Shown in pieces: positions 2,234 through 16,030 of a DNA stretch of 23,243 nucleotides (positions are counted from its first letter, which is position 1; every line of letters begins with the position of its first letter). A program made the translations under genes and the position numbers. Source of the DNA: a virus. The stretch is from the IMG/VR virus record IMGVR_UViG_3300032053_012680, positions 1 through 23,243 of that record; one strand, 5' to 3'. The notes beneath the pieces were generated by a model that was given only the letters and a program-made list of their open reading frames with translations, had not been told where the DNA came from and made no database searches.

Positions 2234-5200
2234 ATGATAGATTTTGCTCACCTACATTGCCATTCGGCGCTTGGCAGCATGGCCGACTCGATGGTTTCAG
2301 TAGACCAATTGTTTAAAACAGCATCAGAAATGGGCCAAAAGAGTTTGGCAGTAACCGACCACGGCACTATGGCGTCTCTAATAGATGCGTACAGGGCATC
2401 AAAAAAATATGGCGTGAGATATATTCCCGGAGTAGAGTTTTATTTTGTCGACAATGCCAAAGAAGATAAGCAGAAAAGAAAGCATTTAATTCTTTTGGCA
2501 AAAAACGAAAAGGGTTACAGAAATCTTCTTAAACTGAACCACGAGGGATTTGTTAATTGGAAATATGTTGCTATTTTAAATAAAGTGTTTCCGCAAATAG
2601 ACCTTGAGCTTATTAAACAATACCGAGAAGGTCTTATTTGCCTTACTGCTTGTGGCTCGGGCCCATTGGCGAACGAGATGTTTAAGCTTGATGAAAATAA
2701 GTGTTGGAACGAAGAGTCATGTTATTCCAATGTTTTAAACTTAGTTGGCTCCTTTCGTGAAGTTTTTGGTGAGGATTTATATCTGGAAGTTCAAACCCAT
2801 GATTTGAAAAAGTATAAAGTTAATAAGAAAACAAACGAAGTAGAAAAAGATGCTAACGGAGAGCCCATAATTCTTGTCGACCAATCTTACATTAATAGAA
2901 AACTTTTAGAATTATCTCAAGACATGGGGATTAAATTGGTGGGAACATGCGACGTTCATTATCTAAAAAAAGAAGACGCCAAAATTCACGACATGCTTAT
3001 GGCCATAAATGACAAAAAAGCATTAAATGATAAAAACAGACACAGATATGAGGTTGAAGAATTCTATATGAAATCTGGAGAAGAAGTGTTTAATCACTTT
3101 TCTCAATTATTTAATAAAGATATTGCTTCCGAAATTTGTAAAAATACCCTAGATGTTTCTAATAAATGTGAAGAGGCGTCGTATATAGAGGCGAAAGAAA
3201 TTAGATTTCCAAAATTTAATGTAAAAACAGAGAGTGACTATGAAGATTTTCTAAAATGGGAAGGCCGAGACGAAAAGTTGCCCGAAGATCATTCGTATTT
3301 AAGATACAAATGCATAAATATTTTTAAGGACAAATATGCCCATCTGCCAGCAGAAAAAAAGAAGGAGTATAAAAAACGGTTTATAGATGAGATTAAAGTT
3401 TTAGAGATGCATAACTTTTCTTCTTATATGTTAATTGTTGCTGATTTCATTCGTGAAGCCAGAAAAAACAATATACGTGTCGGGCCGGGAAGAGGAAGTG
3501 TCGGAGGATGTTTGGTGGCAAATCTATTAGGAATCCACGAGGTAGATCCTATTGAATATGGTCTAATTTTTGAAAGATTTCATAATAAAGAGAAAACTTC
3601 TTTTCCCGATATTGATACTGATTTTAGTCCATCAGGAAGAAATTGGGTGGAAAAATATGTCGTTAATAAATATGGAAAAGACAGAGTTGCTCACGTCTCC
3701 AATCTTACAAAAATGACTCCTAAAGTGGTAATAAAAGATGTCGCGCGCTCATTAGAATTGGGCGGAGGGAAAAGCGAAGCGTTTAAAATAGCAAATAATA
3801 TTACCGATGCGGTTCCCATAACTGCAAAAACTTTTGATGATGTTTTGCAGCAATCAGAAGAGTTTTCAAAATTTTGTGTTCAATATCCGGATATTGAAAA
3901 ATATGGAAGAAATCTGGTTGGTTTAGAAAAAACTTATGCGACACATGCGGCAGGAATAGTTATTAGTGATATTGATTTATCGACATATGTTCCGCTTAGA
4001 TATGATAAAGAAGGAAATGTTGCGGTTCAATATGAAAAAGATAGATGTGAGCAAATGAAGTTAATTAAAATGGATTTGTTGGGACTAGAACATTTGGATA
4101 TTATTGATGAAACAATTAAAAATGCTAACATGTTAGGCGACAGTTGTCCTGACACCAAAAACCTAGCTCCATTTAATGATGTGGGAGTTTGGGATATGAT
4201 TAGCAAAGGGCAGACAATCTGTGTGTTTCAGATGGGCTCTAATCATATGCGAGCACTTTGCAAACAAATATGCCCCAAAAATATTGAAGAATTAAGTTTG
4301 GTTAATGCTCTTGGACGACCATCTGCCATTAAGTCAAGGATATCGTATATAGCGAGAAGGGATGGAAGAGAAAAAATAACATATATTCATGAGTGCATCA
4401 GACCAGCTCTAGAGGAAACATTGGGCGTTTGCGTGTATGAAGACCAGCTAATGAAATTGGCAAAATGTGTTTCTGGTTGGGATCTTAACAAGGCAGACGG
4501 ATTGAGAAAATTAACGAAAATGAAAGCTAAAGGAAAGGATTTAGCGGAAAAACTAAAGAAAGATTTTATAGATGATGCCGTTGTTTTTAATAATCTTTCA
4601 AGAGACATTGCTTTGGAAATTTGGGAAAGCATTGTAGAACCATTCGAAGGATATGGATTCAATAAGGCTCACGGGATTTTCTATAGCTTAAATGGTTATC
4701 ACACAGCATATTACAAATATCATTATCCGGCTGCATTTATGGCCGCTGTATTAAAATCCGAAGTGTCTAAGTCGTCCTCTAATAAAGAAAAAATTAATAT
4801 TTACAAAAAAGAAGCAGAAAGGCTTGGATTAAAAATAGTTACTCCGGACATAAATAATAGTGGAGAGTTTTTTACAGTGTTTGATAAAAACACAATCAGT
4901 ATGGGTCTTGCGGCAGTTAAAGGTGTTGGAACCAAAGCTGTTTGTAACATCATTGAAGTGCGCAACGAACATAAATTTTTGTCTTTTGCCGATTTTTTAT
5001 ATAGAACTAATTCAAGTCTTGTGAGAAAGAATGTCATACAGGCTTTGGCCAAGGCCGGAGGATTTGATTCTTTGCGAATTTCTAGAAAGAGTGCTCATGA
5101 TTTTTACAGCGAGGTTAGAACAAAGGCAAACAAACATGCTGAGAAAAAAGCAATAATTGGTATGGACTCCTGGAACGTAATGAATGATTTTAAATTTATA

Positions 5201-5623
5201 TCTGATGTTTTTGAAACGGAGTGGACTAAAAAAGAAATATTGGATAATGAGTTAGAAGTTCTTGGAGAATATATTTCTGGTGGAATTAACGACGTATATG
5301 AGGGGTTTTTTACCGGAAATGGTGTTCTGTTCAAAAATTTAAAGAAGATGGCTGACAAAACACCAGTTAGAATAGAGGCTCTTATTGAATCCATAATAGA
5401 GTCTAGGATTCAAAAAGAGGGAAAAAACAAAGGAAATGTTTACGCAAGATGTACGCTAATAGACATTAATGGAGACACCGCACAAATGACCATTTGGGCA
5501 AACTTGTGGAAAAATTTAAAAACCAAAGACCTAAAGGGGAAACCAATGTGTTCTATTTGTAGAGTTAATTCTTATAAAGGAATAAATGGGTTGATTTTAG
5601 AGCGAGTAGATAAACTAAAATAG
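2234..5623 (+). CDS. dnaE: DNA polymerase III alpha subunit (DnaE-type replicative polymerase)
   Basis: This is a complete C-family replicase of 1129 residues, close to the usual 1160. The PHP domain begins at HLHCH (H6, H8, H10) and continues with TDHG (D42, H43), PGVE (E68) and CDVHY, so its metal-binding residues look intact. The palm has GPGRGSVGG near residue 416, the catalytic aspartates D459 and D461 in PDIDTDF, and the third, D614, in KMDLLGL. The fingers contain YEDQLMKLA and GYGFNKAHG. A helix-hairpin-helix (GLAAVKGVGTKAV) and a C-terminal OB fold (about residues 1040-1110) follow. AAGGAT precedes ATG 2234. The product would replicate phage DNA, either with its own PHP exonuclease or with a partner proofreader not present here. 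There is no intein. It ends in TAG and is followed by a repeat-rich intergenic region. Confidence 0.96.
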   Translation: MIDFAHLHCHSALGSMADSMVSVDQLFKTASEMGQKSLAVTDHGTMASLIDAYRASKKYGVRYIPGVEFYFVDNAKEDKQKRKHLILLAKNEKGYRNLLKLNHEGFVNWKYVAILNKVFPQIDLELIKQYREGLICLTACGSGPLANEMFKLDENKCWNEESCYSNVLNLVGSFREVFGEDLYLEVQTHDLKKYKVNKKTNEVEKDANGEPIILVDQSYINRKLLELSQDMGIKLVGTCDVHYLKKEDAKIHDMLMAINDKKALNDKNRHRYEVEEFYMKSGEEVFNHFSQLFNKDIASEICKNTLDVSNKCEEASYIEAKEIRFPKFNVKTESDYEDFLKWEGRDEKLPEDHSYLRYKCINIFKDKYAHLPAEKKKEYKKRFIDEIKVLEMHNFSSYMLIVADFIREARKNNIRVGPGRGSVGGCLVANLLGIHEVDPIEYGLIFERFHNKEKTSFPDIDTDFSPSGRNWVEKYVVNKYGKDRVAHVSNLTKMTPKVVIKDVARSLELGGGKSEAFKIANNITDAVPITAKTFDDVLQQSEEFSKFCVQYPDIEKYGRNLVGLEKTYATHAAGIVISDIDLSTYVPLRYDKEGNVAVQYEKDRCEQMKLIKMDLLGLEHLDIIDETIKNANMLGDSCPDTKNLAPFNDVGVWDMISKGQTICVFQMGSNHMRALCKQICPKNIEELSLVNALGRPSAIKSRISYIARRDGREKITYIHECIRPALEETLGVCVYEDQLMKLAKCVSGWDLNKADGLRKLTKMKAKGKDLAEKLKKDFIDDAVVFNNLSRDIALEIWESIVEPFEGYGFNKAHGIFYSLNGYHTAYYKYHYPAAFMAAVLKSEVSKSSSNKEKINIYKKEAERLGLKIVTPDINNSGEFFTVFDKNTISMGLAAVKGVGTKAVCNIIEVRNEHKFLSFADFLYRTNSSLVRKNVIQALAKAGGFDSLRISRKSAHDFYSEVRTKANKHAEKKAIIGMDSWNVMNDFKFISDVFETEWTKKEILDNELEVLGEYISGGINDVYEGFFTGNGVLFKNLKKMADKTPVRIEALIESIIESRIQKEGKNKGNVYARCTLIDINGDTAQMTIWANLWKNLKTKDLKGKPMCSICRVNSYKGINGLILERVDKLK

Positions 5624-5634
5624 CGAAAGGTGTA

Positions 5635-5650
5635 AACATTAAATAATGTT
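5635..5650. repeat. Short AT-rich inverted repeat after dnaE
   Basis: Arms AACATTA and TAATGTT (7 bp) are separated by two bases, directly abutting the next inverted repeat at 5651. It is the first of several inverted repeats packed between dnaE and the next gene. It could be a protein-binding half of the region or simply AT-rich chance. Confidence 0.5.
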
Positions 5651-5682
5651 AACAAACTATAAAGAAAATAGTTTGTTTCATT
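5651..5682 (+). terminator. Probable terminator of the dnaE transcript
   Basis: A perfect 10-bp stem (AACAAACTAT at 5651-5660, ATAGTTTGTT at 5668-5677) with a 7-base loop, followed by TCATTTC. The stem is AT-rich and the U-tract is interrupted, so termination strength is uncertain. The position, 27 bases after the dnaE stop, fits a terminator. Confidence 0.55.
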
Positions 5683-5694
5683 TCTATCAATAAT
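5681..5694. promoter_or_regulatory. 14-base motif shared with the intergenic region at 15416
   Basis: TTTCTATCAATAAT occurs here and identically at 15416-15429. Both sites precede genes whose leaders also share AACACTATAA followed by GGAGAC. It may be part of a phage promoter or leader element; no match to -35/-10 consensus was found. Confidence 0.35.
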
Positions 5695-5750
5695 GTCTCC
5701 TTATAGTATAGAGATAATCTCTATTGACTATCAACACTATAAGGAGACAT
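5693..5750 (+). promoter_or_regulatory. Long hairpin that buries the ribosome binding site of the next gene
   Basis: A perfect 15-bp inverted repeat (5693-5707 with 5736-5750) has the Shine-Dalgarno AAGGAG (5741-5746) wholly inside its right arm, paired with CTCCTT in the left arm. The start codon, ATG 5753, lies just outside. Between the arms is a second dyad, ATAGAGAT-A-ATCTCTAT (5708-5724), which would stack on the outer stem. In RNA this would block ribosome access. As DNA, the inner 17-bp dyad is a plausible operator for a dimeric regulator, including the ribbon-helix-helix-like protein encoded next. The pairing is seen directly; regulation is inferred. Confidence 0.75.
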
Positions 5751-5752
5751 GT

Positions 5753-5929
5753 ATGACAAAAGATAATTTTTACGTAATGGCTGTTAACTTTGATCGTGAA
5801 AAACATAAAGATTTGGTCGAGTGGTTAAAAAAACAGGCAGAAGAGAATGACAGAAGTCTTTCGTCCTTTTGTATCAGCATTTTTAAGGAATATAGAAAAC
5901 AAAAAGAGGATGAAAATGGAAACAAATGA
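5753..5929 (+). CDS. Small ribbon-helix-helix-like (Arc/MetJ fold) protein
   Basis: This 58-residue protein starts at ATG 5753, six bases after AAGGAG. An in-frame ATG at 5693 was rejected because it has no RBS and lies in the left arm of the hairpin. The layout is a short strand (FYVMAVNFD), a long amphipathic helix (about residues 16-32), a turn at NDRSLSS and a second helix (FCISIFKEYRKQK). This matches the strand-helix-helix plan of Arc/MetJ DNA-binding dimers. The fold call comes from pattern, not a conserved signature. If correct, autoregulation through the dyad upstream is a natural guess. Its last 14 bases overlap the start of HNH gene 1. Confidence 0.6.
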   Translation: MTKDNFYVMAVNFDREKHKDLVEWLKKQAEENDRSLSSFCISIFKEYRKQKEDENGNK

Positions 5930-6671
5930 CGAATGCAAACAATGCTCTGGGTCATGCAATTTATTAAATTATGACCTCGGCGACGTCTTTGTGTGGAAGT
6001 GCAAAATATGTAAAGCGGCATACGATAAAATATATCGTGAAAAGAATAAAGATAGGCTTGCTGTAATAAAGAAGGTGTATAGAGATGCCAACAAAAACAG
6101 GATTAATATAAAAGCAAGAGATATTCTAAAAAATAGGACACCAGAAGAAATACAGAAACAAAAAGATTATCTAGCTGCATATTATATTAAACACAAAGAT
6201 AAAATAAAGAAGGCTACCAAAAATAATAAAAACAGACCAGGTGCAAGACAAAATAGGGCTAAACGTGAACGGGAGAGATATAAAAATGACCCACAATACA
6301 GATTGGAAATGAACGCAAGAAGCAGGATTAGAAAATTTATAAAAGACCGTAGCATCAACAAATCGTCCTCTGTATCACGCGTGATTGGGTGTTCACGCGA
6401 AGAGCTTGCTGCTAGGTTTGAATTTTTATTTTATGATAATTTGGAAACTGGAGAGAGTATGACCTGGGATAACGATGACAAATGGGATATTGATCATATT
6501 GTGCCATTGTCATATTTTAATATGGCTGATCCAGAACAATTTGCGGTGGCCTGCCATTATTTAAATCTGCGGCCACTTTGGAGAAAAGAGAATCTTGAAA
6601 AATCGGCCAAAGTGCCAGAAAACGCAGAAGAGATAATTGGAAGAATCAAAGAAACATTAAATAAAACATAA
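5916..6671 (+). CDS. HNH endonuclease 1 with N-terminal zinc ribbon (homing-type)
   Basis: A 251-residue protein. ATG 5916 was chosen because AGAGG ends six bases upstream; ATG 5910 would leave no spacing. Cysteines at C7, C10 or C14, C29 and C32 form a likely zinc ribbon. A lysine-rich linker carries two 15-residue repeats (residues 38-67). The C-terminal HNH nuclease has WDIDHIVPLS, CHYLNLRPLW and ENLEKS; the DH pair and the Asn are the expected metal-site residues. It cleaves DNA, probably as a free-standing homing or DNA-processing enzyme. It is the most diverged of the four family members in this window. Its start overlaps the preceding small gene, so its translation depends on the hairpin-controlled RBS there (inference). 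Confidence 0.88.
   Translation: METNDECKQCSGSCNLLNYDLGDVFVWKCKICKAAYDKIYREKNKDRLAVIKKVYRDANKNRINIKARDILKNRTPEEIQKQKDYLAAYYIKHKDKIKKATKNNKNRPGARQNRAKRERERYKNDPQYRLEMNARSRIRKFIKDRSINKSSSVSRVIGCSREELAARFEFLFYDNLETGESMTWDNDDKWDIDHIVPLSYFNMADPEQFAVACHYLNLRPLWRKENLEKSAKVPENAEEIIGRIKETLNKT
6027..6116 (+). repeat. Two 15-residue repeats in HNH gene 1
   Basis: Residues 38-52 (KIYREKNKDRLAVIK) and 53-67 (KVYRDANKNRINIKA) are tandem units with the pattern KxYRxxNxxR(I/L)xxx. They are the shortest array in the four HNH genes of this window. Confidence 0.7.
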
Positions 6672-6682
6672 GGGAGTAAAAG

Positions 6683-7288
6683 ATGAATTGTTCGAATTGT
6701 GGAGTTGAAATAAGTAAAGAGTTTATATTTGCTTTTTCGTCCAATCAGTGTCCTGCGTGCGGAAAAAGTATTATGAATCCAGATCAATCTGTGGCCTATC
6801 TTTATCTTCGTGAGCTGCTAAAAACTGCCTTGACCGAAGAAGATATGGAAAAGATATCTACTTTGATTATGGCAAATTTTGATTTGAAAAAAATATCCAT
6901 TCCGGGTGCCTTTGCGCCAGCTTATGTGGCTCCCACCCCTGACCAAGATGGCCCGGGCACTAACACGCCATCGGAACCAGAGAAAAACATGGAGCCAATT
7001 AATGTTACAGAAGAGGTTCAGGAGTCTGTTATTACCGAAGATGGCGTAAAGCTCGAGGTTTTAGACAAGAAAAAGACACAAGATGTTTTGCAAAGAATGA
7101 GGGACGAGGCACTTGCTGGCGCTATTGACGAAAGATATGGTGTAGAATTAGAAGACGAAGATGTTTTGTTGTCCGAAGATCCCAAGGCTAATGCGGAATT
7201 GTTAAAAAAGAGACAAAAACAAATTGATGCACGAAGAACAATTTCTAGCGGCAGCGGCGGAAAGAATAGTTTCTCAAGGAGTAGCTAA
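6683..7288 (+). CDS. Zinc-ribbon protein of unknown function
   Basis: A 201-residue protein with a strong RBS (AGGGAG, 6 bases before ATG 6683). The N-terminus has a four-cysteine zinc ribbon (CSNC at 3-6 and CPAC around 24-27). A helical stretch, a Pro/Thr/Glu-rich flexible linker (about residues 75-110) and an acidic, helical second half with a Ser/Gly-rich tail follow. The ribbon resembles those of nucleic-acid-binding adaptors, but no family was recognised. It overlaps the next gene by one base (TAATG), and lies in the operon leading to the putative mediator and SSB, so a role in replication or transcription is plausible but unproven. Confidence 0.75.
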   Translation: MNCSNCGVEISKEFIFAFSSNQCPACGKSIMNPDQSVAYLYLRELLKTALTEEDMEKISTLIMANFDLKKISIPGAFAPAYVAPTPDQDGPGTNTPSEPEKNMEPINVTEEVQESVITEDGVKLEVLDKKKTQDVLQRMRDEALAGAIDERYGVELEDEDVLLSEDPKANAELLKKRQKQIDARRTISSGSGGKNSFSRSS

Positions 7289-7578
7289 TGATTAGGGCAA
7301 TAGATTATCAAAAAGTTGATATGTCAGATGAAGAATATGTATATTATCAAGAGTTGGTTAAAAAATTCACTGACAGCACTAATAAAGGTTCAGAGTATTT
7401 TGTAAATTTGTTTGTAACAGATAAGTTAGGATTAATTTCTTTAATTAAGCCAACAAAATCGATTCCGTGGGAGATAATATTTTTTGCTCAAAATTTAATG
7501 ATTAACCAGCATTTGAGAGAAAATGATAAAAGGATAGATAAACTACAAAAGGAAATAAGTGATTTGGAGAAAAAATGA
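7288..7578 (+). CDS. Unknown 96-residue protein with C-terminal coiled coil
   Basis: AAGGAG sits six bases before ATG 7288, which overlaps the previous stop (TAATG). The first two thirds are mixed hydrophobic and charged, including IPWEIIFFAQNLM. The last 20 residues (NDKRIDKLQKEISDLEKK) form a clear heptad-like coiled coil. The stop overlaps the next start (ATGA), so the three genes 6683-8144 form one coupled unit. No family was recognised; a small oligomeric accessory protein would fit. Confidence 0.75.
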   Translation: MIRAIDYQKVDMSDEEYVYYQELVKKFTDSTNKGSEYFVNLFVTDKLGLISLIKPTKSIPWEIIFFAQNLMINQHLRENDKRIDKLQKEISDLEKK

Positions 7579-8144
7579 AAGAAAGCAAGCTATTAACCGT
7601 TAGAGAGTTGCTGAATGGAAATGGACAACAAATAAGTCCGATGGATATTGACACATCCGAAATTAAAGAACTGTCCAACTCTATTCCAAAAGATGGAAAT
7701 ATTGATCTAAATCAGGCCGAAATTCTAGCAACAAAGTTTCTTAGAGGGGCAGACATATGCTCAGAACTATTGGCAATAGGTACCAATTATGCTTCCAAGC
7801 TAGACACATTAAAAAAGAGGGCCTATTCGGAAGCAGCTTTAACCAAAGCTACAGCTTCAGGGATTAAAACCGATAAGTCTAGAGCCTGGTTTGCGGATGC
7901 AGATAATGACTATTGTAACGCGTGCAATAGATACTCTGAGGCGTTGGCCTTTGTAAAATGGGTTGATAGCAAGCATGAATCTTTCATTAGAGCGCATTAT
8001 TTATGTAAAAAGATGTTAGAGCGGGGATATTCGCACGAAAAAGCTGAATCGTGGACAGGAACCCTTGAGGAAAGTAAAACTGGAGATTTAATACCCACAC
8101 AAACAGAAGAGGAGGAGTCGGATAAGTGGTGGGACGATAAATAG
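7575..8144 (+). CDS. Helical protein, possibly a UvsY-like recombination mediator
   Basis: A 189-residue, mostly helical protein with GGAG before ATG 7575. The central part (about residues 55-155) has a helix rich in Lys, Arg and Ala, a TDKSRAWFADAD segment, then AFVKWVDSKHESFIRAHYLCKKMLERG. This pattern, and its place next to SSB and upstream of a RecA-like gene, recall UvsY of T4-like phages, which loads the recombinase onto SSB-coated DNA. The similarity is by overall pattern only and no diagnostic motif confirms it. The C-terminus is acidic (EEEESDKWWDD), as in many partners of DNA-binding proteins. It ends in TAG just before the SSB promoter. Confidence 0.65.
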   Translation: MKESKLLTVRELLNGNGQQISPMDIDTSEIKELSNSIPKDGNIDLNQAEILATKFLRGADICSELLAIGTNYASKLDTLKKRAYSEAALTKATASGIKTDKSRAWFADADNDYCNACNRYSEALAFVKWVDSKHESFIRAHYLCKKMLERGYSHEKAESWTGTLEESKTGDLIPTQTEEEESDKWWDDK

Positions 8145-8152
8145 AAAAGAAG

Positions 8153-8180
8153 TTGACATTTTTAGAATTTGGTGTATAAT
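8153..8180 (+). promoter_or_regulatory. Consensus sigma-70-type promoter for the SSB gene
   Basis: Exact TTGACA (8153-8158) and exact TATAAT (8175-8180) are separated by 16 bp, with transcription expected to begin around 8187. It lies in the 112-bp gap before the SSB gene and points at it. A full match to the housekeeping consensus suggests strong transcription by unmodified host RNA polymerase, as expected for an abundant protein needed early. Confidence 0.93.
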
Positions 8181-8186
8181 ATATAT

Positions 8187-8256
8187 ATGTCCGCTGGCGA
8201 AAAAGCATGGTGCTTAATAGGCTAAAGGACAATTAAACAAACAAAGGAGTTTTGAT
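8187..8256 (+). promoter_or_regulatory. SSB mRNA leader with small hairpin and open A-rich RBS region
   Basis: The 70-base leader can pair AAGCA (8203-8207) with TGCTT (8211-8215), enclosed by GTCC (8189-8192) with GGAC (8227-8230). It is followed by a structure-poor AATTAAACAAACAAAGGAG stretch holding the RBS. The arrangement, a structured 5' element then an unstructured TTAAAC-containing region over the RBS, resembles the T4 gene 32 autoregulatory operator. Homology or function is inference. Confidence 0.4.
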
Positions 8257-8889
8257 ATGGGTACAAGAGTAGTAGGAAAACTAGACAATTGGGACGATGC
8301 GGATCTTGGTGGCACTGATTTCATGAATCTTGATGAGGGAAGTAATCCTGTTCGGGTAATTACATCTCCTTACCAATTTTACATTCATTGGAGCAAGGAC
8401 GCAACCGGGGCAAATCGCAAGGTTCGTTGTGCTTTGGATGGATGCCCACTGTGTCAGCAGGGAGAACGGGCCGTGGCTCGTTGGATTGTAGGCGTTATGA
8501 ACCGAAAGACTGGCAAAGCTGCCATTGTTGAAATCGGTCCTCAAATCTTCAAGCAGATGCACGCATTGGCCAAGAATCCAAAGTGGGGAGACCCAAGGAA
8601 ATACGACTTGGATGTGAAGCGTCAACCTAAGGGCTCACAGCCTCTCTACATAGTCACGCCGGAACCCAAGGAACCAATCTCTGATGAAGAAAAGGGAGTT
8701 ATCAAAGAGTTTCTTGCCCGCGTTGATTTTGTCAAGATTTCAGCATCATCTACCCCAGATGATGTGCGCGAGAAAATGGGCATGGCCCAAAAACCAAAAG
8801 AGAGCACTGTTAGTAATGATTTTGAAGATGATAGCGGAGTTGTGGCCGCAGATGCCACAGCAGACGATGATTTTGATTTTAGCGCCTAA
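8257..8889 (+). CDS. ssb: Single-stranded DNA-binding protein
   Basis: A 210-residue protein with AAAGGAG seven bases before ATG 8257. It has a zinc-binding cluster (KVRC at 58, then DGCPLC with C63 and C66; H44 could be the fourth ligand), many aromatic and basic residues in the core (FYIHW, RWIVGV, KWGDPRKYD), and an acidic tail ending DDDFDFSA. Such tails are the partner-binding element of SSBs. This combination matches phage gp32-like single-stranded DNA-binding proteins. It would coat single strands at forks and recruit the polymerase, primase core and recombinase encoded nearby. It has its own strong promoter and terminator, and its codons are richer in G and C than those of the HNH genes, as expected of a highly expressed gene. 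Confidence 0.85.
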   Translation: MGTRVVGKLDNWDDADLGGTDFMNLDEGSNPVRVITSPYQFYIHWSKDATGANRKVRCALDGCPLCQQGERAVARWIVGVMNRKTGKAAIVEIGPQIFKQMHALAKNPKWGDPRKYDLDVKRQPKGSQPLYIVTPEPKEPISDEEKGVIKEFLARVDFVKISASSTPDDVREKMGMAQKPKESTVSNDFEDDSGVVAADATADDDFDFSA

Positions 8890-8911
8890 TTAAAACCTAG
8901 CAGGAGTATAG

Positions 8912-8943
8912 GGAGGAGGCTCGTGCCTCCTCCTTCTCTTTTA
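8912..8943 (+). terminator. Strong Rho-independent terminator after the SSB gene
   Basis: A perfect 9-bp GC-rich stem (GGAGGAGGC at 8912-8920, GCCTCCTCC at 8925-8933) with a TCGT tetraloop is followed by TTCTCTTTTA. With the promoter at 8153 it makes the SSB gene a self-contained unit. The start codon of HNH gene 2 lies at the end of the U-tract. Confidence 0.92.
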
Positions 8944-9614
8944 TGACTAACGAACAAACAAAAAAATGTACTGGAAACTGCGGAAATATAAAAAATATTA
9001 ATAATTTTTATATTTGTAAAGCAAACAAGAAAGATGGACACAAAAATATTTGTAAAGAGTGTTTGTCAGAATATAATAAAAAATATTTAAAAGACTATTG
9101 TGAAAAAAATAAAGAAAGACTTGATGATTGCAAGGCTAAATATAGAAAAGATAACAGAAAAGACTTAAACAATAAACAAAAAATATATTCCGCAGATCAT
9201 AAAAAAGAGAAAAAAGAGTATGACAGGATTAGATATCAGGCCAAAAAACTAGAAATAAATAACGCTATTGCTGTAAAAAGAAATAAAGATATATCGTTTA
9301 AAATCGCAGGAAATTTAAGATGTAGGCTTAGAAGAGCAATCGAGATTGGTCAAAAAACCGGATCTGCCGTTCGTGATTTAGGATGTTCTGTTGAATATTT
9401 GATAGATTATTTTAAAACAATGTTTTACACAAATCCTGATACTGGAGAAATGATGTCTTGGGATAATTATGGCCAATGGCACATTGACCACATAGCTCCA
9501 CTGTCTTCTTTTAACCTAACAGATAGAGAGCAATTTTTGAAAGCCTGTAATTTTACTAATTTACAACCTCTTTGGGCCAAAGACAATCTGAAAAAAAGCG
9601 ACAAGATTCAATGA
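8943..9614 (+). CDS. HNH endonuclease 2 with N-terminal zinc ribbon (homing-type)
   Basis: A 223-residue protein. The zinc ribbon is C9-x3-C13 with C37-x2-C40. Three 15-residue Lys/Tyr/Asn repeats follow (residues 50-94), then the conserved block from GSAVRDLGCS to the C-terminal HNH motif (WHIDHIAPLS, FTNLQPLWAKDNLKKS). It is closely related to HNH gene 3, with long stretches of recognisable DNA identity in the nuclease domain. It lies between SSB and RuvC, typical of free-standing homing endonucleases that sit in replication gene clusters. No Shine-Dalgarno precedes ATG 8943, which abuts the SSB terminator, so expression probably needs read-through. Its stop overlaps the RuvC start (ATGA). 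Confidence 0.9.
   Translation: MTNEQTKKCTGNCGNIKNINNFYICKANKKDGHKNICKECLSEYNKKYLKDYCEKNKERLDDCKAKYRKDNRKDLNNKQKIYSADHKKEKKEYDRIRYQAKKLEINNAIAVKRNKDISFKIAGNLRCRLRRAIEIGQKTGSAVRDLGCSVEYLIDYFKTMFYTNPDTGEMMSWDNYGQWHIDHIAPLSSFNLTDREQFLKACNFTNLQPLWAKDNLKKSDKIQ
9090..9224 (+). repeat. Three 15-residue repeats in HNH gene 2
   Basis: Residues 50-64, 65-79 and 80-94 start with KDY, AKY and KIY respectively and keep the 45-base period. The third is the most diverged. Confidence 0.7.
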
Positions 9615-10114
9615 AAGTACTAGGCCTAGATGCCAGCTCTGTGCGCACGGGGTGTTGTATTGTTGAAGACGGGTATTTAGATTTCAAATCGCTCGACACC
9701 ATTGACCCTCCACCCAAATTATTAATGGGAAAGAAACTATTGTTTTTTGAAAAAGCAATAAAGAAGTTGCTAAAAAAACACAGACCAGATGCGGTAGTAA
9801 TTGAAAACATATTTCGTGGACCCAACATAATCACTTTTAAAACGCTTTCTATGTTTAGGGGCGTTGCGTATAAGTGTGTTCAGGAAGTTTTGAATCTTGA
9901 GCCAGAGAGCATTATGCCCACCGAAGCCCGAAAGGCCGTCGGCTGTGGACCAAAAAAGGAAGACGCTTTTGAGTGGATAACAAAAAAATATGATTTCAGA
10001 GATTTCACGTTTAATAAGCACAATGATATTTGTGATTCTATTATACTCGCCTTATCTTATTTTCAGCCTCGCCCTCACCCAAAACTTAAAAAGACCAAAA
10101 GAAAGAAAAAATAA
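9611..10114 (+). CDS. ruvC: RuvC-like Holliday junction resolvase
   Basis: A 167-residue protein starting at ATG 9611, within the ATGA overlap with HNH gene 2; an in-frame upstream start at 9572 lies inside the HNH gene and was rejected. The RNase H-like fold shows the RuvC acidic residues: D7 in GLDASSVRTG, E65 in VVIENIF, and D139 and D142 in HNDICDSIILAL. The length equals that of bacterial RuvC (about 170). It has a very basic C-terminal tail (KLKKTKRKKK). Expected role: cutting four-way junctions made by the RecA-type recombinase or clearing branches before packaging. It overlaps the next small gene by one base. Confidence 0.88.
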   Translation: MKVLGLDASSVRTGCCIVEDGYLDFKSLDTIDPPPKLLMGKKLLFFEKAIKKLLKKHRPDAVVIENIFRGPNIITFKTLSMFRGVAYKCVQEVLNLEPESIMPTEARKAVGCGPKKEDAFEWITKKYDFRDFTFNKHNDICDSIILALSYFQPRPHPKLKKTKRKKK

Positions 10115-13606: not shown

Positions 13607-14376
13607 TGAATAAATCATTTTTTGAAACACTGGCCTCTGTTTGTCACAATCTTCTTTTAGATAATAGTGATATTATGTTTTATTTAAAAGAAGGAAGGGG
13701 CATGACAGACAAAACAATAGAAACTTACAAACTGGGTGCTTTTCCTAAAGATCTAAGAGATTTTTATAACAAATATGATATGGACCCAGTAGAGTTGAGA
13801 AAACAAAATATTGTTGTAAACGCAAATCATAGTCCATTTAAGATGTATCCTATAGTAATTCCAATAAGAGATATTGTCGGACAGTCTATAGCGATTGGGT
13901 GTAGAACTCTGTTGTCAGACGATAAACGAAAAGAGTTGGGTTTACCAAAATATAGAAATAGTACTTACAAAAAGACCTCGCACCTTTTTGGTTTGGACAG
14001 CGCTAAAGGCGCAATTAGAAATAGCAATAAAGTTTTTGTTGTGGAAGGATATTTTGACACTATAACAGCACATCAAAACAATATTATGAACGTTGTAGCA
14101 ACATGCGGAACAATGTTCACCGAAAGACAGCTGATAATATTGTCAAGATATACGGAAAATATTTGCCTGTTGTTCGATAATGATGCGCCAGGAAAAATGT
14201 CGGCTCAAAAAATTATGCAAAAGTTTATCAATTTTGATGAAAACATTCATTTAACTTGTGCGTTTACACCAGAAGGATATAAAGATTTAGATGAGTATTT
14301 GCAAAAGGGCGGTAATATGCGGGTATTTGATAATAAAATTGACTTAAACGAGGAAAATATTAGTACCTTGTGGTAA
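13606..14376 (+). CDS. DnaG-type primase core (RNA polymerase/TOPRIM domain only)
   Basis: A 256-residue protein. YLKEGRGMTDKTIETYKLG (about 26-44) and IPIRDIVGQSIAIGCRTL match the N-terminal half of the DnaG catalytic core. The TOPRIM fold follows, with VVEGYFD (E147, D151) and LLFDNDAPG (D191, D193), the metal-binding residues of primases. The N-terminal CHC2 zinc-binding domain and the C-terminal helicase-binding domain of bacterial DnaG are absent; the whole protein is less than half of DnaG's length. It would make RNA primers for the polymerase, perhaps helped by the zinc-ribbon protein encoded just before. The frame is intact and the start is coupled, so this looks like a natural compact form. 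Confidence 0.87.
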   Translation: MNKSFFETLASVCHNLLLDNSDIMFYLKEGRGMTDKTIETYKLGAFPKDLRDFYNKYDMDPVELRKQNIVVNANHSPFKMYPIVIPIRDIVGQSIAIGCRTLLSDDKRKELGLPKYRNSTYKKTSHLFGLDSAKGAIRNSNKVFVVEGYFDTITAHQNNIMNVVATCGTMFTERQLIILSRYTENICLLFDNDAPGKMSAQKIMQKFINFDENIHLTCAFTPEGYKDLDEYLQKGGNMRVFDNKIDLNEENISTLW

Positions 14377-14387
14377 TAGGAGATGTT

Positions 14388-14843
14388 ATGCCAAAAACTT
14401 TTACTTGTAGCGCAACTGACGCAGAAAGTCTTCATAATTATGTTGAAATTAGTATCGACCCGCACCTGTTGAGTAATTTTTCTAACGAAGAGGGAATAGC
14501 GGCTTTTTTGTCCAACCAAAGTTGCTCCGAAGAATTCCAAAAGCTTAAAAACGAACTTTTAGAAGAAGTATTGTTTATTATTAATAATAATTTAACAGTA
14601 AAACAAAAAGAAGTAATGCAAATGACTTATTTGGAAGGAAAAACCCAATGTGAGATATCTTTTGCGCTTGGAAAGCATCAAACAACCATACACAAAATGC
14701 TTCAAGGAAATATAGATTATAATAATGATAAAAAACGATATGGCGGAGCTTTAAAAAAAATAAAACGGTTATGTTCAAGTAATAAGAGAATAAAGCAAAT
14801 TTTAGCACAAATGAGAACGTATACGCCAGAAAGTAAACCCTAA
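14388..14843 (+). CDS. Sigma-region-4-like helix-turn-helix protein
   Basis: A 151-residue protein from ATG 14388, five bases after AGGAG; an in-frame GTG at 14370 has no such site. Residues 69-106 (LTVKQKEVMQMTYLEGKTQ, then CEISFALGKHQTTIHKML) match sigma-70 region 4, the helix-turn-helix that reads -35 elements. No region 2 is visible, so this is not a complete sigma factor. It may be a small sigma-like or anti-sigma adaptor that redirects host polymerase, as small phage proteins do in T4 (known for T4, inferred here). The first 65 residues are acidic and helical and not recognised. It lies between the primase and IF-3 genes. Confidence 0.7.
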   Translation: MPKTFTCSATDAESLHNYVEISIDPHLLSNFSNEEGIAAFLSNQSCSEEFQKLKNELLEEVLFIINNNLTVKQKEVMQMTYLEGKTQCEISFALGKHQTTIHKMLQGNIDYNNDKKRYGGALKKIKRLCSSNKRIKQILAQMRTYTPESKP

Positions 14844-14863: not shown

Positions 14864-15334
14864 ATGGATATTTTGGTAATTGGAGAAGATGGAAGCAGGC
14901 TTGGGGAAATGTCTCTAGAAAAAGCAAAAAAGACAGCAAATGATTTAGGAAAAAGTTTGGTTTTAGTTAATCCAAAAGAAAATATTTATAGAATGGCAGA
15001 TGTTGGCAAATTAAAATATGAACAAAAACAAAAAGAAAGGGATCAAAGAGCCCAAAGGAGGACTCACAAAATAAAAGAAATTAGGTTCACACTAACCACC
15101 GAGCAACATGATATTGATGTCAAAGTTAGGAGAATCCGAGAGTTCTTAGTGGAAGGCCTAAAAACAAAGATTTCTATGCGACTACATGGTCGCCAAGAAA
15201 GCCTTCGGGACCTCGCCATTGAAAAAATAAAGAGCATCATCGATTCCTCTATTACCGACGGAATAGCAAGTGTCGACAAAGGACCATCGGTTGAAGGAAA
15301 AAATATAATAGTTTTCTTAAATCCCACCAAATAA
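14864..15334 (+). CDS. infC: Translation initiation factor IF-3
   Basis: A 156-residue protein with both IF-3 domains. The N-domain has EDGSRLGEMSLEKA and LVLVNP; the linker begins KLKYEQKQKERDQRAQRR; the C-domain has IKEIRF, DIDVKVRRIREFLVEG, KISMRLHGRQ and VEGKNIIVFLNP. Bacterial IF-3 is about 170-180 residues; this one lacks the N-terminal extension. IF-3 binds the 30S subunit, prevents premature 50S joining and checks the start codon, so a phage copy could bias initiation towards phage messages (inference). The RBS is poorly placed: AAGGAG (14846-14851) is 12 bases from ATG 14864 and only two from an out-of-frame ATG at 14854, whose frame ends after 29 codons. Confidence 0.9.
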   Translation: MDILVIGEDGSRLGEMSLEKAKKTANDLGKSLVLVNPKENIYRMADVGKLKYEQKQKERDQRAQRRTHKIKEIRFTLTTEQHDIDVKVRRIREFLVEGLKTKISMRLHGRQESLRDLAIEKIKSIIDSSITDGIASVDKGPSVEGKNIIVFLNPTK

Positions 15335-15565
15335 TAATCCATACATCCTACCTGTTTGATTTCATTCGTCATTTTTTTAAACAATCCTGTATAAAAATAA
15401 TCTATAATATTCTGTTTTCTATCAATAATTTGAGTATTAGTTATATGGCATAGTGTGCCTTGGCTTAATTTTAAAGATGGCAACAATTCTTAATACTTAT
15501 CTAATTTTGTATATTGTTGGCAAAAAAATATAAAATTAGACTAAACACTATAACTGGAGACTAAA
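15335..15565. other. 231-bp AT-rich intergenic region
   Basis: No gene was found on either strand. It holds TATAAT (15403-15408) without a convincing -35, and TTTCTATCAATAAT (15416-15429), identical to 5681-5694. It also has a 7-bp inverted repeat (15433-15439 with 15491-15497) enclosing GGCA/TGCC, an AT-rich stem at 15501-15539, and the sequence AACACTATAACTGGAGAC before the next gene, which resembles the leader at 5734-5748. No tRNA-like arms were seen. It separates the replication/translation block from the unknown block that follows and probably holds a promoter. Confidence 0.6.
15501..15539. repeat. AT-rich inverted repeat upstream of the 154-aa gene
   Basis: CTAATTTT-G-TATA (15501-15513) pairs with TATAAAATTAG (15529-15539), giving about 11 bp with one bulged G and a 15-base loop. 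It is not followed by a U-tract, so it is not an obvious terminator. It lies 27 bases before the start codon and leaves the GGAG of the next gene free. Confidence 0.45.
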
Positions 15566-16030
15566 ATGGCCGAAACCTTAGATTGGGGAAAACTAACAAC
15601 CGAAATCGTTCCAAACACAAAAAAGATATTATTTGAGTCAAACAAACATCGTTTTACTAAGATAGCGTTTGATGTTTGGCAGTTTAATGACTCTACAGTC
15701 GAGTCTCTTTGGATTTTGGAAGATGGTGAAGACGGCAAACAGTATTTGGTGGCGAAATATGAAGATTCCGATCAATCTTTGGAGTCCAAAAGCAATTGGT
15801 TAGCGTTACTTGATAAAGAAGGAAAGAATATTACGCTTGCGTATAAAAACACTCCTATTCAAAAATTTGCGTCGTCCGACTTTGGTTTTAGTAAAGATGA
15901 CGCCTATATTTTTCAGAAAATGTTAGTTGAAAAACTAAGTTCAGATAAATCTTTTGTAGAAAAGCTCATAAAATCACAACCAAGAGAGAAACAGGAAAAA
16001 TTGCTGACACAATTTCCTGAATTGGTATAA
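15566..16030 (+). CDS. Unknown 154-residue protein
   Basis: TGGAG lies seven bases before ATG 15566. It is the first gene after the long intergenic region. The first two thirds have alternating strands with many aromatic residues (FDVWQF, SLWILEDGED, YLVAKYE, NWLALLDKEG, ITLAYK), suggesting a beta-rich domain; the last third is helical and charged and ends in EKLLTQFPELV. There is no signal peptide or membrane segment. The family is not recognised. The next gene starts 15 bases downstream, so the two are probably cotranscribed. Confidence 0.75.
   Translation: MAETLDWGKLTTEIVPNTKKILFESNKHRFTKIAFDVWQFNDSTVESLWILEDGEDGKQYLVAKYEDSDQSLESKSNWLALLDKEGKNITLAYKNTPIQKFASSDFGFSKDDAYIFQKMLVEKLSSDKSFVEKLIKSQPREKQEKLLTQFPELV

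Follow-up and report, generated by a model that had tools for sequence, protein, structure and literature searches.

A hairpin over a ribosome-binding site and a promoter-like element in the leader of a putative homing endonuclease cassette of an uncultured phage

Results

A cassette in the replication operon

The window analyzed here is the whole 23,243-nucleotide stretch of the viral record IMGVR_UViG_3300032053_012680. In this window, 1,059 bp separate the gene for DNA polymerase III alpha from a zinc-ribbon gene, and this segment comprises a leader, a gene for a 58-aa ribbon-helix-helix (RHH)-like protein, and an HNH endonuclease gene (Table 1). Four related contigs were identified via the polymerase gene; in each of these, the zinc-ribbon gene begins within a few nucleotides of the polymerase stop or overlaps the polymerase gene. 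Because the relatives have at most a few nucleotides between the two genes, the comparison of gene order identifies the whole segment as an insertion absent from all four. In contig L004 (positions 5001-9761), the polymerase III alpha gene contains a long in-frame insert of intein-like appearance.

Table 1. Features of the cassette and its leader, in window coordinates
Feature	Position	Strand	Remarks
Inserted cassette (leader, RHH-like gene, HNH gene)	5624..6682	+	missing from four relatives
Small A+T-rich hairpin upstream, 10-bp stem	5651..5677	+	no terminator call
Upstream box TTTCTATCAATA of promoter-like element	5681..5692	+	matches TTTCTATYAATA box of six relatives
Left arm of 15-bp inverted repeat	5693..5707	+	ATGTCTCCTTATAGT; carries anti-SD CTCCTT
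-10-like TTATAGT in left arm	5701..5707	+	N8 spacing as in relatives; best-scoring site of the window
Inner dyad ATAGAGATAATCTCTAT	5708..5724	.	candidate operator of RHH-like protein (putative function)
Predicted transcription start	5713..5716	+	placed from the -10 position
Right arm of 15-bp inverted repeat	5736..5750	+	ACTATAAGGAGACAT; carries SD
Shine-Dalgarno (SD) AAGGAG of RHH-like gene	5741..5746	+	from sequence
58-aa RHH-like protein	5753..5929	+	phrog_3180; AlphaFold model, Foldseek neighbors
HNH endonuclease, overlaps RHH-like gene	5916..6671 (start possibly 5910)	+	phrog_1035

The initial annotation had described an RHH-like gene overlapping an HNH endonuclease gene. The overlap is borne out by the coordinates of the two frames, and the RHH assignment in part. 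The AlphaFold single-sequence model of the 58-aa protein contains two confident helices, and its Foldseek neighbors are nearly all RHH proteins, yet with E-values above 1. At the sequence level, the protein weakly matches the Arc-like repressor family phrog_3180 (E = 0.0011) and, under the cut-off, Pfam Arc (E = 0.048), and no match exceeds a curated family cut-off. The RHH frame can be extended upstream, through the hairpin, to an ATG at the foot of the left arm (5693-5929, 78 aa), which has no SD.

The HNH protein matches the endonuclease VII family phrog_1035 (E = 2.7e-11), contains a DH...N motif, and hits Pfam HNH_4 under its cut-off. It thus has the HNH catalytic domain expected of free-standing HNH homing endonucleases, and the insert is putatively a free-standing cassette of this kind. 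Two HNH paralogs, with 36-39% identity, are encoded in the window at 8943 and 11285. Immediately 5' of the ATG of the first of these (8943) lies a terminator-like sequence, GGAGGAGGC-TCGT-GCCTCCTCC followed by TTCTCTTTT (8909-8942), and this gene shows no clear SD outside the terminator-like stem.

Searches with the RHH-like and HNH proteins against viral contigs, phage records and contigs of the lineage, and with the RHH-like protein also against plasmids and genome contigs, detected no relative of the cassette. The annotation of six fetched regions with other HNH matches contained no RHH-HNH pair. A small overlapping ORF in MetMV, considered as a counterpart of the RHH-like gene, was rejected because it is not RHH-like in appearance.

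A hairpin predicted to mask the ribosome-binding site of the RHH-like gene

The leader contains a perfect 15-bp inverted repeat, with 28 nt between the arms, and the AAGGAG of the RHH-like gene lies wholly within the right arm, both as initially annotated. No perfect inverted repeat in the window with a loop of up to 60 nt is longer (the runner-up has 11 bp), and the repeat has no second copy in the window. Of 200 simulations matched to the real window in dinucleotide composition, none reached 15 bp, the maximum being 14. The RNA of positions 5640-5780 (141 nt) has a predicted folding energy of -38.4 kcal/mol (z = -6.5). The left arm is contiguous with an arm of the inner dyad, resulting in a single helix of 22 bp that is interrupted on its 3' side by an 11-nt bulge.

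Among the 23 gene starts checked in the window, the SD of the RHH-like gene is the least accessible, with 16 kcal/mol required to open it, compared to 0.2-6 kcal/mol for most of the others. The cost depends on where the transcript begins: it is 15-17.6 kcal/mol for 5' ends up to 5694 and about 3.3-3.9 kcal/mol, the range of the ordinary genes of the window, for 5' ends from 5706 onward. With the left arm removed in transcripts beginning at 5712-5718, about 3.4 kcal/mol suffices, compared to 16-17.5 kcal/mol when the arm is present. Sequestration of this ribosome-binding site (RBS) by the hairpin, as originally proposed, is thus strongly supported by the computed accessibility. On long transcripts, the SD is buried in a stable helix, as in RBS-masking hairpins of the T4 type.

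A promoter-like element of the lineage crosses the left arm

Comparison of the intergenic leaders of the lineage brought out a common element, TTTCTATTAATA-N8-TTATATT, which was noticed by eye and scored afterwards. It lies upstream of the homolog of orf154 (15566-16030 in the window) in 4/4 contigs found via the polymerase gene. In the cassette leader, the corresponding sequence, TTTCTATCAATA-N8-TTATAGT, overlaps the left arm of the hairpin such that the -10-like TTATAGT makes up the upper portion of this arm, with the anti-SD in the spacer.

A scan of viral contigs for TTTCTATYAATA-N8-TTATA yielded 57 loci, six of which were assigned to the lineage by tblastn; these are the four contigs found via the polymerase and two more (L157 and L183), which were recovered by the motif itself and so are no independent evidence for it. 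All six sites lie just upstream of the orf154 homolog, and both motif-recovered contigs have C at the variable position, like the window. A block of genes opens with the orf154 homolog; followed onward in one contig, this block reaches the large terminase gene (phrog_675, 1.2e-52). A profile built from the six relatives places its top site in the window, on either strand, at 5681 (21.7 bits; an equal site in 4/300 simulated windows), and the second best at 15416, in the window's own orf154 leader. When the profile is restricted to the four polymerase-found contigs, 5681 is still the top site (19.8 bits; 11/300 simulated windows). Sites with up to two mismatches were found in 0/100 shuffles.

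By these sequence comparisons, a promoter-like element is conserved in the lineage. We infer that it is a late promoter, with transcription starting 6-9 nt downstream of the -10, in the loop of the hairpin. Sigma-like proteins encoded in the lineage count in favor of this model. Two observations count against it: in the window's own orf154 copy, 13 nt, not 8, separate the box from TTATAT, and each relative has about one copy of the element, not a series of copies ahead of many late genes. The initial annotation had suggested escape from the hairpin by an internal promoter, as in T4; a conserved promoter-like element with its -10 in the left arm lends support to this suggestion, and the sequence match by itself makes the element a candidate for that role.

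Two groups of additional motif sites were set aside: in L034 and L060, the pattern falls inside an HNH coding region, and in G004, G005 and G006 a further motif-like site was left uncounted, as it appears to fall at a gene junction with an SD. Upstream of the orf154 homolog in L182, L183, L157, L179, L190 and L194, a short, partly covarying stem with a conserved TCTAY loop is located just behind the element; a stem in this position would fit a transcript 5' end.

Several genes related to expression were noted in the window and its relatives. The window encodes a sigma-like protein resembling region 4 (14370-14843; about 5e-5) and, next to it, a complete translation initiation factor IF-3 (14864-15334; IF3_N 2.4e-12, IF3_C 2.3e-20); a relative encodes a region-2 sigma-like protein upstream of a trigger-factor gene (L007, 1409-2287; 3.8e-7). 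A sigma70-like promoter, TTGACA-N16-TATAAT, precedes the SSB-like gene of the window (8154-8181), and a similar promoter is found before the same gene in relatives.

The inner dyad and alternative readings of the repeats

The second, near-perfect dyad of the initial annotation is present in the loop as ATAGAGAT-A-ATCTCTAT (8+1+8), inexact only at the central base. The window contains five palindromes with arms at least this long, so the dyad alone is mildly unusual and stands out mainly by its location, spanning about -5 to +11 relative to the predicted start. It probably serves as the operator for autorepression by the RHH-like protein.

The nested repeats could also be read entirely at the DNA level, as an operator array for the RHH-like protein, with purely transcriptional regulation and the RNA hairpin as a by-product. 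CTAT/ATAG half-sites are indeed clustered in the leader (8 in 103 nt; the mean is 0.98), which counts for the favored model as well. RHH-like proteins bind to short sites in inverted or tandem arrangement, and the inner dyad sits at the predicted start. However, for a DNA operator, 15 perfect base pairs with the SD exactly in one arm would be unnecessary, and the pairing at the RNA level is extreme, judging by the cost of opening the SD. Moreover, SD hairpins with this core in viral contigs precede an ATG more often and have longer arms than those of the reversed-sequence control (40/54 versus 15/41 distinct hairpins), keeping in mind that starts would be preceded by an SD anyway. The enrichment is confined to arm length and nearness to the ATG; the core SD-hairpin pattern alone is near chance, occurring at 67 loci in viral contigs and at 52 in the reversed control. 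Altogether, we regard the purely transcriptional reading as rather unlikely.

Still less probable, in our assessment, is a hairpin whose sole effect is to keep a possibly harmful cassette silent on read-through mRNA, with no internal promoter and with the RHH-like gene expressed rarely or by another trigger. The very strong computed masking speaks for this reading, and a scan for sigma70-type promoters found none on the plus strand at the hairpin, only a single match on the minus strand, and in the region as a whole no more matches than in shuffles; however, the lineage-specific promoter-like element sits exactly in the left arm. That the repeats are a structural relic of the insertion or a terminator, without a regulatory role, is very improbable: they lie close to the 5' edge of the insert, but there is no T-run and no terminator call, the right arm is located exactly at the RBS, and the repeat is unique in the window.

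Discussion

A model for the cassette leader

We favor, as a probable but far from assured explanation of the whole locus, a hairpin-masked leader with an escape promoter in the left arm and an operator over the start. Under this model, the region would be the leader of an HNH, putatively homing, endonuclease cassette inserted in the replication operon of the phage. Read-through transcripts from the DNA polymerase III alpha gene would carry both arms and fold into the hairpin, which would hide the SD of the RHH-like gene. The lineage element (TTTCTATYAATA-N8-TTATAwT), which otherwise heads the packaging block, crosses the left arm, so that the anti-SD falls in its spacer and the upper stem in its -10. 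Transcription initiated from this element would produce an RNA that would start in the loop and lack the left arm, so that the SD would be free and the RHH-like gene translated; by binding the inner dyad over the loop start, the RHH-like protein would then repress its own gene.

The initial annotation further proposed that a single element could time both genes of the cassette. This proposal is hypothetical as regards the HNH gene, which has its own, weaker and unmasked SD, AGAGG (2.3 kcal/mol to open). Conceivably, the hairpin times the repressor and not the nuclease. The HNH protein would be made early from read-through mRNA via its own SD, and the RHH-like regulator would be made late, from the loop promoter, and shut the cassette down. 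We consider this variant doubtful; if true, it would amount to an inversion of the T4 logic.

Comparison with known systems

In the T4 genes for I-TevI, I-TevII and I-TevIII, an RBS hairpin is combined with an internal late or middle promoter and an autorepressor operator (PMC2988022). The cassette leader resembles these genes in that the RBS is masked on read-through transcripts and an endonuclease gene is the cargo; the escape promoter in or by the hairpin and the operator over the promoter, both known in T4 (PMC2988022), have predicted counterparts in the window. In contrast to the T4 genes, the window has a free-standing cassette in which a separate RHH-like protein is the presumed repressor, and the promoter element is not the T4 TATAAATA. 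Furthermore, the phage has a C-family (bacterial-type) DNA polymerase. In four other viral contigs (L024, L032, L044 and L070), an SD hairpin with TATAAATA, a late promoter of the T4 type, in its loop precedes an apparent T4-like neck gene.

In Aeh1 mobE and T4 segB, which are free-standing endonuclease genes, a hairpin likewise sequesters the RBS (PMC2988022, PMC3014915). The masked RBS there is that of the endonuclease, whereas in the window a small gene precedes the endonuclease gene, and the masked SD belongs to this RHH-like gene. The arrangement in the window may work like the I-TevI, segB and mobE hairpins, yet it is no simple member of this group, because the masked SD is that of a regulator-like gene and not of the endonuclease. 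With RHH repressors of the P22 Arc and CopG type, the cassette shares a palindromic site directly followed by the gene for a small RHH-like protein; however, the sequence similarity of this protein is weak and its binding is a prediction.

If the favored model holds, the combination known from T4, in which a hairpin hides an RBS and a later promoter sits in the left arm, would recur in a lineage that replicates with a different polymerase and has sigma-like proteins and a promoter element of its own. Such recurrence would point to repeated evolution of one timing switch for mobile endonucleases, and the element would provide a candidate late promoter for this uncultured lineage.
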